Of a DNA stretch of 34,538 nt, positions 1,084 to 3,186 are shown piece by piece. How positions within the stretch are numbered: position 1 is the stretch's first letter; each line of letters starts with the position of its first letter. The position numbers were made by a program, and so were the translations under genes. This stretch comes from Thiobacillus denitrificans (GTDB lineage Bacteria; Pseudomonadota; Gammaproteobacteria; Burkholderiales; Thiobacillaceae), in assembly GCA_020725005.1 (NCBI GenBank), contig DYFW01000015.1, forward strand, positions 1-34,538. Direction: 5' to 3'. The notes under the pieces are model-generated. The model was not told the DNA's origin. It made no database searches and saw only the letters and a program-made list of their open reading frames with translations.

Positions 1084-1230
1084 GTCAGGGGACAGGGGAC
1101 AGCGGACAGGGGACAGCCGACAGCGGACAGCCGACAGCGGACAGCCGACAGGGGACAGCGGACAGCCGACAGGGGACAGCAGACAGCCGACAGGGGACAG
1201 CAGACAGCCGACAGGGGACAGCAGACAGCA
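1084..1230. repeat. Tandem heptamer array, GACAGNN x about 20
   Basis: Uninterrupted tandem 7-bp units. One imperfect unit at 1084 (GTCAGGG) is followed by 20 perfect GACAGNN units from 1091 to 1230. The last two bases are only GG, CG, CC or CA. The array starts five bases upstream of the mshG start codon (minus strand) and continues into the 96-bp repeats at 1231. It lies in the 412-bp gap between mshE and mshG, while other gaps in this operon are 12-25 bp or overlaps. Seen directly. The function is unknown; replication slippage could change the copy number. Confidence 0.95.
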
Positions 1231-1497
1231 GACAGTCGCAGCGCGAGTGTGTGCCGCGCACCCCCCCTGTCCGCTGTCCGCTGTCCGCTGTCCGCTGACT
1301 CATACGACAGGGGACAGCCGACAGCAGACAGTCGCAGCGCGAGTGTGTGGCGCGCACCCCCCCTGTCCGCTGTCCGCTGTCCCCTGTCCGCTGACTCATA
1401 CGACAGGGGACAGCAGACAGCCGACAGTCGCAGCGCGAGTGTGTGCCGCGCACCCCCCCTGTCCGCTGTCCGCTGTCCGCTGTCCGCTGACTCATAC
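1231..1497. repeat. Composite 96-bp tandem repeat, 2.8 copies, with inverted heptamer arms
   Basis: Three near-identical units start at 1231, 1327 and 1423, exactly 96 bp apart; the third ends at 1497. Each holds a GACAGTC start, a unique core of about 30 bp ending in a C-run, three to four inverted heptamers (CTGTCCG, one CTGTCCC), and GACTCATAC. The first two copies then carry a few direct GACAGNN heptamers leading into the next copy. Direct GACAG and inverted CTGTC runs flanking a short core could fold into long hairpins in DNA or RNA. Differences between copies are single bases (for example GTGCC/GTGGC) and heptamer variants, so duplication looks recent. The final GACTCATAC contains the complement of the mshE stop codon. 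Confidence 0.93.
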
Positions 1498-3186
1498 CCG
1501 TCCCGTCAGATCGACCACCCGCGCGACTTCCGACAAGGAAGTCACGCCGTCCTTCACGCGCTGGATGCCGTCCTCCGCGAGCGGGCGGTAGCCGTGCGCG
1601 ATCGCGGCACGGCGGATCTCGTGCAGCGGCGCGTGATTGGCGACGAGCTCGTCGATCTCGGGGTCCATGCGCAGCAATTCGATCAGTGCGAGGCGGCCGC
1701 GATAGCCCTTGTTGTTGCAGGCGGGGCAGCCGACGGCATGGTAGATCGGCGCGTCGCCGGTTTGCCAGCCGAGAATGCGCGCCTCGTCCTCGTCCGGCGT
1801 GTAGGCTTCCCGGCAGTGCGGACACAGCTTGCGCACCAGGCGCTGGGCGACGACGCCGATGATGTTGCCGGCGAGGATGCCGGGCGTAATGCCGATGTCC
1901 ATCAGGCGCGGGAACACGCCGAGCGCGGAGTTGGTATGCAGCGTGGTGAACACCTGGTGGCCGGTCATCGCGGCGCGGAAGGCCATCTCTGCCGTGTCGC
2001 GGTCGCGGATCTCGCCGACCAGGATGATGTCCGGGTCCTGCCGCATGATCGAGCGGATGCCGTTGGCGAAGTCGAGCTTGATCGTCTCGTTGACCGAGCT
2101 CTGGCGCATCAGCGTGACCGGGTACTCGACCGGGTCTTCCAGCGTCATGATGTTGACCGTCTCGTCGTTGAGATGCGAAAGCATCGAATACAGCGTGGTC
2201 GTCTTGCCGGATCCGGTCGGGCCGGTGACGACGAGGATGCCTTCGGGGCGCGCCATCATCAGTTGCAGTTCGCGCAGCGCGTCGTCGGTGAACCCCATCT
2301 GCTCCAGCGGCATGATCGACTTCTCGCGGTCGAGGATCCTGAGCACCAGGTTCTCGCCATGGATGCCGGGCTGGCTGGAGACGCGAAAGTCGATCGGCCT
2401 GCCGTTGAGCGTCAGCGACATGCGGCCGTCCTGCGGCGCGCGCGTCTCGGCGATGTTCATGCCCGAAAGCACCTTGAGTCGCACCAGGATGCCCGGCCAG
2501 TAGGTCTTGTGCAGGCTGCGGATCTGCTCCAGCACGCCGTCGATGCGGTAGCGGATGCGCAGGAAGGCGTGCTCGGGTTCGAAGTGGATGTCGCTCGATT
2601 CGCGCTTCACCGCATCGGTGAGCAGCGCGCCGACCAGCCGCACCACCGGCTGGGTGTATTCCTCGGTTTCCGGGTTGAGGCTGGCGTAGTCGACCTCGCC
2701 GGTCTCGATCTCGCGCAGGATGCCGTCGAGCGAGAGGTCGAAGCCGTAGAACTTGTCGATGTATTCGAGCAGCTGCGCCTCGCTCGCCAGCAGCGTGTCG
2801 ATCTCGATCTGTCCGCCGAGCGCGGCGCGCAGCTGGTCGAGCGCGACGACGTTGAACATGTCGGTGGTCGCGAGCGTCAGCACGTTGCGCGCGGCGTCGT
2901 GCGCGATCGGCAGCAGGTGGTGGCGGCGCGCGAATTCCTCCGGCACCAGCTGCAGCGCCTCGGGGTCGGCGACGACCTGGGTGAGGTCGATGCCCTGGCT
3001 GCCGAGCGCGTTGGCGAGCTGGTCGCGCAGCACCGCCTCGGTCATGAAGCCGAGCGCGACGAGCTGGCGACCGATGGGCAGGCCGGTGGTCTTCTGTTCC
3101 TTCAGGCCGATGCGCAGCTGGTCGAGGGTGATGAGCCCCTGCGAGACCAGGGTTTCGCCCATGCGGAGTTTTTTTCTGCGCTCCAT
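1492..3186 (-). CDS. mshE: MSHA biogenesis / type II secretion assembly ATPase (GspE family)
   Basis: Cytoplasmic hexameric ATPase that powers pilus or pseudopilus extension, 564 residues. The N-terminal MshEN/GspE_N domain (about 10-150; many homologues bind c-di-GMP here) begins MGETLVSQGLITLDQL. The ATPase core has Walker A GPTGSGKT (322-329), the Asp box and Walker B region ILVGEIRDRDTAEMA, and the His box TGHQVFTTLHTNSA. A C-terminal tetracysteine zinc motif, CPHC ... CPACNNKGYRGR, is typical of the family. I start at the ATG at 3186 (MERRKKLRMGE), 11 bp after the mshN-like stop; the ATG at 3162 is an alternative. The frame stays open far upstream, but that stretch is antisense-like residue composition inside the previous gene. 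The stop codon falls in the last copy of the 96-bp repeat. The family is certain, the msh subtype likely. Confidence 0.93.
   Translation of the reverse strand: MERRKKLRMGETLVSQGLITLDQLRIGLKEQKTTGLPIGRQLVALGFMTEAVLRDQLANALGSQGIDLTQVVADPEALQLVPEEFARRHHLLPIAHDAARNVLTLATTDMFNVVALDQLRAALGGQIEIDTLLASEAQLLEYIDKFYGFDLSLDGILREIETGEVDYASLNPETEEYTQPVVRLVGALLTDAVKRESSDIHFEPEHAFLRIRYRIDGVLEQIRSLHKTYWPGILVRLKVLSGMNIAETRAPQDGRMSLTLNGRPIDFRVSSQPGIHGENLVLRILDREKSIMPLEQMGFTDDALRELQLMMARPEGILVVTGPTGSGKTTTLYSMLSHLNDETVNIMTLEDPVEYPVTLMRQSSVNETIKLDFANGIRSIMRQDPDIILVGEIRDRDTAEMAFRAAMTGHQVFTTLHTNSALGVFPRLMDIGITPGILAGNIIGVVAQRLVRKLCPHCREAYTPDEDEARILGWQTGDAPIYHAVGCPACNNKGYRGRLALIELLRMDPEIDELVANHAPLHEIRRAAIAHGYRPLAEDGIQRVKDGVTSLSEVARVVDLTGRV

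Follow-up and report, generated by a model that had tools for sequence, protein, structure and literature searches.

The window, that is, the whole 34,538-nucleotide stretch of Thiobacillus denitrificans DNA that was analysed, opens with two genes on the reverse strand. mshG (3 to 1079), truncated at the window end, was identified by its T2SSF domain, and mshE (1492 to 3186) by its T2SSE and MshEN domains. The 412-bp spacer that parts them (1080 to 1491) is wholly array apart from a few bases by the mshG ATG, which lies 6 bp from the array bound set by TRF; the first-pass annotation had correctly described an array that splits a tight operon. On the forward strand, antisense to msh, a GACAGNN tract (1086 to 1235) stands beside the mshG start codon, and its end is overlapped by the first of three 96-bp units on the same strand (1209 to 1304, 1305 to 1400, and 1401 to 1496), each built from a direct GACAG arm, a GC-rich core, and an inverted CTGTC arm. 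The last of these units runs into the end of mshE (1492 to 1496) and takes in its stop codon (1492 to 1494). Read along the transcript, the spacer therefore consists of a GACAGNN-type arm, a GC-rich core, and a CTGTCNN arm, repeated three times, and then a long CTGTCNN tract that stops about 4 to 6 bases short of the mshG ATG.

TRF analysis of the window revealed period 7 at 1086 to 1235 (21.4 copies, 81% matches), period 21 over the same interval with a higher proportion of matches (92%), and period 96 at 1209 to 1497 (3.0 copies, 96%). Given that period 21 outperformed period 7, heptamer triplets must have been duplicated as units; identity between the dinucleotide words of the heptamer tract was 0.59 at lag 3 versus 0.05 at lag 1. 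GACAG was counted 21 times in 1086 to 1236, such that the tandem run noted in the first-pass annotation is present but comprises 21, not 20, heptamers. Pairwise comparison of the three 96-bp units gave 93, 92, and 95 identical bases out of 96, with four variable columns; they are near-identical, as first described. A three-heptamer pattern matched the window 29 times, compared with 0 matches in 100 dinucleotide shuffles (a control for the GACAG pattern in the window only), and the composite array is real. GTATGA, comprising the last mshE codon and the stop, is present in each 96-bp unit; the unit was therefore evidently multiplied in place, along with the end of mshE. Judged from its periods, the array has grown at three scales (7, 21, and 96 bp). 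Its outermost heptamers are of the TCAG type. The genome is a 388-contig draft with an estimated contamination of 4.55%, and exact array copy numbers may be wrong.

The strand expected to be transcribed with msh was predicted to fold at -275.6 kcal/mol (z -9.8 versus 100 shuffles), and single-stranded DNA folds of the three 96-bp units gave z values of -4.2 to -6.2, consistent with the initial proposal that the arms are able to fold back. A transcript of mshE and mshG would be expected to carry a very stable hairpin. A consensus promoter scan of 900 to 1700 found no promoter-like site, and a terminator scan found none in the array, the sole terminator-like site lying inside mshE. When the window was compared with Rfam, only microRNA models were returned, far under their gathering scores, and these were read as hairpin noise. 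A G-quadruplex was also considered and rejected: no motif of four G-tracts of at least 3 (loops of 1 to 7) was found on either strand of this array or of ten TCAGG elements of relatives. A plasmid search with mshE returned distant homologues only.

Of the ten GACAGNN sites in its genome, which together gave 69 matches to three consecutive units, the mshE-mshG array is the largest. The others comprise three sites in a prophage region of contig C147 and one each at fliE, folD, an endonuclease/exonuclease-family gene, dnaX-ffs (where ffs was confirmed as the small SRP RNA), accC-prmA, and ileS. Most of these arrays have no full second arm. The ileS array is in coding sequence, and the rest, read by eye, lie at gene ends or in spacers; at mshE-mshG, accC-prmA, dnaX, folD, and fliE, where the genes were confirmed, the array is sense after a stop codon or antisense before a start codon. 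The three arrays of C147 (L002, L007, and L026) lie in a Mu-like prophage region (G000:C147:23547-38051), and Mor-family and Mu-like protease domains adjoin two of them; these arrays probably lie in DNA that arrived as phage. When one stretch of this region was searched against a phage collection, no match was obtained. The fliE array (L003:1470-1610) is flanked by two stretches of ~21 bp with one base different (GGATCCCGG.CCTCAGACCGC), which looks like a flank duplication. An eleventh array, on contig C201 (L005, G000:C201:34392-34780), was excluded from the site counts; it is of mixed word, with CTGTC and CAGTC heptamers alternating in 14-bp units, and contains a run of N. Block gene conversion among the arrays was assessed and found no support: shared dinucleotide order scored 67, versus 67.35 in order-shuffles (ten loci, few words). 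Because the dinucleotide order is not common to the sites, nothing points to block copying among the arrays.

Relatedness to a dispersed repeat, as initially suspected, is borne out by these ten sites and by similarly built arrays in other members of the genus. The relatives recovered with mshG bear names that are mostly Thiobacillus or Hydrogenophilales. A search for the GACAGNN word and the 96-bp core, as advised in the first-pass annotation, found four-unit arrays in 4 of 56 genus genomes (53 matches in our genome, 13 in G013, 5 in G046, and 1 in G038) and five-unit arrays in 4 of 300 order genomes (39 matches in our genome; 3, 1, and 4 in the others). In the 56 genus genomes the core was matched at this one mshE-mshG junction only; whatever else the 96-bp unit matched was heptamer sequence, apart from a brief segment at the core edge in G044. 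GACAGNN is thus nearly private to this genome, on counts that carry no internal control, the reversed GACAG pattern being the pattern itself.

Three preset heptamer words (GACAGNN, TCAGGNN, and GAGCGGN, written here as GACAG, TCAGG, and GAGCGG) were counted in each genome, and others may exist. Genomes G002, G003, and G004 gave 52, 62, and 76 TCAGG matches, respectively, with neither GAGCGG nor four-unit GACAG in any of the three; the reversed control for TCAGG matched only in our genome (2) and in G013 (14). G006 gave 69 GAGCGG matches, 1 TCAGG match, and no four-unit GACAG, and our own genome gave 69 GACAG (three units), 13 TCAGG, and 0 GAGCGG matches. Mixed genomes were also found: G013 (32 TCAGG, 49 GAGCGG, 13 GACAG), G026 (27 TCAGG, 23 GAGCGG), and G047 (133 TCAGG, 29 GAGCGG). 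Since the sites of G002 to G004 and G006 were chosen by word, uniformity within a genome was judged from these whole-genome pattern counts. In each of the three words, at loci chosen by word, conservation is higher over the opening five or six positions than over the remaining one or two. TCAGG arms were convergent in 40 of 56 genus genomes, with 38 to 68 bases between the arms (479 matches, several per element), versus 0 of 56 for divergent pairs at the same distance. Our own set has one divergent neighbour pair, which probably arises from adjacent 96-bp units.

When the same gene junctions were compared among genomes, arrays were found at the same places in different words. At accC-prmA, the GACAG/CTGTC arms of our genome correspond to TCAGG in G003 and to GAGCGG in G006. 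At dnaX-ffs, our genome and G038 have GACAG facing CTGTC, and G003 and G004 have TCAGG facing CCTGA; G038 carries GACAG here although TCAGG is the commoner word in that genome. At fliE, our CTGTC tract stands alone, and G006 has a GAGCGG tract together with an inverted CCGCT-type tract. At folD, CTGTC in our genome corresponds to a short CCTGA tract inside a longer insert in G003. In all, for six of the seven non-prophage sites of our genome, one or more other genomes carry an array of a different word at the corresponding position; for the seventh (on C132), no match was present among the fetched loci. GAGCGG arrays of G006 or G013 and TCAGG arrays of G002 or G004 likewise occupy the same gaps (L269/L249; L270/L245; L273 with L238 and L220; L280/L214); the pair L270/L245 covers two sites, at one of which the G-rich strand differs. 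The site pair formed by L274 with L229, L240, and L222 was left out, as the alignments fail to bracket the array. A chance estimate for the shared sites assumes 2500 equally likely junctions and is a rough guide on which no claim was built. Taken together, the compared junctions show that different species have array sites in common but spell them with different words, in both arms if two are present.

The array in ileS makes a clean marker, since each replacement has to leave the reading frame intact. A search of 25 genus genomes for ileS gave matches in 19, of which 14 became loci. In all 14, 7-bp-periodic sequence (degenerate in G032) is in frame at the same codon position, our own array being L034:1087-1117 on contig C150. 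By eye, the word is TCAGG in seven genomes (including G032), GAGCGG in four, GACAG-like in two (our genome and G013), and a hybrid in one (G030). In 11 of 14 genomes the ileS word is also the commonest of the three words in the genome; it differs from the commonest word in G052 and G013, and is the hybrid in G030. TCAGG counts are higher in the seven genomes with TCAGG in ileS than in the four with GAGCGG (one-sided Mann-Whitney p 0.006, with kinship ignored). On a tree built from the ileS flanks (12 labelled rows, without G013 and G030), at least 4 word changes are required, compared with a mean of 4.4 for shuffled labels; strong support is limited to 2 of its 11 inner branches, which by themselves require 2 or more changes for each of the two commoner words. 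In two alignments viewed, both to one IleRS type, the stretch aligns with a segment one residue shorter and therefore need not be an insertion; the region may be a tolerant loop.

The mshE-mshG junction was then considered in relatives. A search with mshG gave 46 loci, one of which (L080) was dropped as the mshG start is missing, leaving 45 relatives to be classed. The spacer is at least 80 bp long, or cut by a contig end, in 39 of 45. Among 40 measured mshE-mshG loci (our own included, and L065 counted as short), 33 have a spacer of at least 80 bp, versus 18 of 251 at the six other msh junctions (8/46, 0/45, 5/44, 1/44, 0/35, and 4/37). TCAGG heptamer palindromes (class B) are present in 13 relatives (L046, L064, and L065 assigned by eye), a palindromic element of ~450 to 650 bp or its remnant (class C; the remnant in L078 is 97 bp) in 21, and an element with CACAGAG-type inverted ends (class D) in 4; one 83-bp spacer is unclassified, and six relatives have short spacers of 19 to 55 bp. 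Our own locus is the sole one with GACAG. Six contigs end inside the spacer, before mshE (L052, L054, L056, L064, L073, and L079). In L065 the mshE stop is missing at its usual place and mshE reads into the array. L064:1-197 holds an inverted copy of the mshG start at the contig end beside the palindrome, probably an assembly artefact.

The class C element matches its own reverse complement and has long inverted ends (AAAAGAAAGTAAC-type), for example at L043:4387-5000. In L069:4554-4961, a GxxExxY gene (TIGR04256) lies between inverted CACAGAG-type repeats, the gene family having been confirmed in L069 only; the class D spacers of L071, L072, and L075 are similar to that of L069, and palindromes with CACAGAG-type ends were also seen in other msh spacers of L065, L069, L072, and L075. 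When five class B, four class C, and two class D elements were used as BLAST queries against 449 kb of the relatives' DNA, matches at the junction versus elsewhere numbered 12 versus 0, 21 versus 0, and 4 versus 5, respectively. In whole genomes, at least 33 class C copies of ~230 bp or more were found, and mshG was in the stretch for 17 of 30 fetched; since this search scored 11 first-look candidates per genome, copies elsewhere are undercounted. Judged from these comparisons, the mshE-mshG junction is a hotspot, filled mostly by three unrelated palindromic families.

On the mshG tree, the element class requires 21 changes versus 22.0 for shuffled labels (69 of 200 shuffles as low); element family is no more clustered than shuffled labels and shows no phylogenetic signal. 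The close sisters L059 and L085, for example, carry a class B and a class C element, respectively. These data indicate that one operon junction can hold unrelated palindromes in closely related species. Two functional readings of the folds found no good support. Compensatory pairing was sought in the TCAGG elements (9 of 13 aligned), where 4 of 42 predicted pairs were double-changed and kept, and the covariation term was unfavourable; arm likeness in these elements comes from the shared word, and there is no strong case for selected pairing. A hairpin that juxtaposes the mshE stop and the mshG start was likewise not favoured, as the stop-start graph distance in the predicted fold of our spacer was no better than in shuffled spacers (6 of 10 as low). 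Corresponding values were 55 of 110 for class B and 80 of 160 for class C; class D alone had a shorter distance (7 of 40 shuffles as low, from four loci).

Heptameric G-rich repeats have been described in Xanthomonas (GGGAATC) and Nostoc (GGGGA(C/T)T) by Rehm et al. (2015, PMC4692102). According to the available text of that paper, convergent inverted pairs number 70 in Xcc and 75 in Xac, the Xanthomonas repeats favour gaps between aligned genes (sense strand after the stop, antisense before the start), and the majority of Xac heptameric repeats are transcribed; heptameric repeats are over-represented in several bacteria, with a function that Rehm et al. regard as not established. The arrays reported here are alike in having units exactly 7 bp long, in which some positions are conserved and others vary, in forming convergent inverted pairs (in our own units and the TCAGG pairs of the genus, several of our own arrays being one-armed), and in lying within 50 bp of gene ends at the five junctions read by eye (mshE-mshG, accC-prmA, dnaX, folD, and fliE). 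They differ in that the word GACAGNN is not of the GGGNATC type and has no four-GGG quadruplex motif, in that our array has been multiplied in place to a 96-bp unit, and in that the word differs among congeners at shared sites, which is not reported in the available text of PMC4692102. REPINs, associated with RAYTs (Bertels and Rainey 2011, PMC3116915), similarly are extragenic inverted pairs of conserved ends around a variable hairpin spacer, but, as far as the available text goes, their ends are a 16-mer REP rather than tandem heptamer arrays, and the link to Y1 is weak here. The DUS dialects of the Neisseriaceae, with thousands of copies, a demonstrated function in DNA uptake, and a distribution of dialects that matches the phylogeny (Frye et al. 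2013, PMC3630211, available text), also consist of a short dispersed word that is constant within a species and different among relatives. Unlike DUS, our words occur as tens of tandem arrays and are unclustered on the ileS tree. Tandem 7-bp units of other words occur in another phylum, as the heptanucleotide repeats of the cyanobacterium Calothrix, named STRR. The Calothrix repeats are mentioned in the available text of PMC4692102. Heptameric units, convergent pairs, gene-end placement, and shared sites are thus known from what is available of Rehm et al. (PMC4692102). Among the matches listed in a search of non-subscription literature, no paper was found to describe the replacement of one heptamer word by another at a common site; as far as that search reaches, novelty lies in the Thiobacillus words, in their divergence at shared sites, one of them coding, and in the hotspot within msh.

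On balance, we favour the view that the mshE-mshG array is an expanded heptamer-armed palindromic array of the kind described by Rehm et al., whose word has been homogenised across sites. The G-rich arm is placed sense just after the upstream stop and antisense just before the downstream start, between co-directional genes; the array would grow by replication slippage or unequal recombination at the fold-back; and the word may spread among the sites of one genome through some homogenising process. Because the same word occurs at dispersed sites and different words occur at one site in relatives, local growth alone is not expected to suffice. Ectopic recombination, a template-using enzyme, re-seeding of preferred sites, time and again, by a mobile palindrome, and selection by a reader protein are candidates for such a process; the dinucleotide order of our arrays gave no direct signature of ectopic recombination. 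The array would form part of the mshE and mshG transcript as a long hairpin, presumably tolerated for the most part, some palindrome being present at this junction in most relatives examined; the hairpin would at most tune mRNA stability or translation, and any effect on msh expression is one that we infer.

Could the element instead be mobile? One alternative is a REPIN- or MITE-like element, with heptamer arms and a GC hairpin core, that depends for its movement on a Y1 (RAYT-type) transposase gene at another locus and for which the junction is an insertion hotspot. REP-like GC hairpin cores are frequent in the TCAGG-armed elements, Y1_Tnp occurs in 40 of the 56 genus genomes and was matched twice in our own, the sister loci L059 and L085 carry different element families, and three of our arrays are inside the Mu-like region. 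The Y1 count also correlates with the convergent-pair count (Spearman 0.37, p 0.005), a weak and confounded association that is uncorrected for kinship. However, G031 and G053 have 20 and 8 convergent-pair matches with no Y1 match, no target duplication was noticed by eye around our element, and both the single site of the 96-bp core among the 56 genus genomes and the sharing of array sites between species, as opposed to random scatter, argue against mobility; we regard this explanation as unlikely. It is less likely again that the arrays serve for recognition, that is, that a putative DNA-binding reader (an uptake receptor, a nucleoid protein, or a segregation protein) recognises the conserved positions of the word and that the two co-evolve, in the manner of DUS dialects and ComP. 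The better conserved first positions of all three words and the difference in words among genomes, with at least four changes on the ileS tree, agree with a reader, but the sites number tens, not thousands, the arrays are partly degenerate, and the conservation was scored at loci selected by the words themselves, where slippage with selection could yield the same pattern.

The first-pass annotation had also proposed a phase-variation or dosage switch, in which slippage would alter spacer or hairpin length and so the mshE:mshG ratio and pilus output. Long, nearly perfect tandem arrays are prone to slippage, and this one, with periods of 7, 21, and 96, is located in a pilus operon. Against a switch, arrays of the same kind adjoin dnaX, accC, prmA, folD, and fliE and sit inside ileS, the scanned region around the array has no promoter-like site, and the mshE-mshG spacer of Thiobacillus thioparus DSM 505 (L055) is merely 19 bp; Rehm et al., in the available text, considered phase variation unlikely for their own repeats (PMC4692102). 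The proposal is therefore not upheld, and a switch seems to us quite improbable. Assembly artefact or contamination is the least credible of the alternatives. The fragmented draft with its estimated contamination, the N gap in the C201 array, and the six relatives' contigs that end short of mshE would all fit an artefact, yet a single contig spans our array with reading frames intact on both sides, and arrays of the same design stand at mshE-mshG in other genomes.

Returning to the homogenised heptamer array, the combined data look like a concerted, though not pure, replacement of dialects, and suggest that rewriting of the word can affect an entire genome; against pure dialects, G013, G026, and our own genome are mixed, the ileS word departs from the commonest word in G052 and G013 and is a hybrid in G030, and the dnaX-ffs array of G038 is not in the commoner word of that genome. 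It is possible, and we offer it tentatively, that heptamer-array sites are inherited, including the in-frame one in the essential ileS, and that the word is rewritten genome-wide by a trans-acting process, with non-allelic arrays changing dialect together. That arrays arise anew at favoured sites, instead of being inherited and having their word replaced, is a serious alternative, because the msh junction itself behaves as a favoured site. Given the different words at shared sites, the process that copies or selects a word must reach numerous sites within each genome. If true, such rewriting would amount to concerted evolution of dispersed microsatellites in bacteria, and its driver would be a copying or recombination machine or a co-evolving DNA-binding reader; arrays at one site in different words provide a natural experiment. 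The TCAGG elements of L047 and L062 contain ACAGG heptamers and, together with the outermost TCAG-type heptamers of our own array, are as expected for words in transition.
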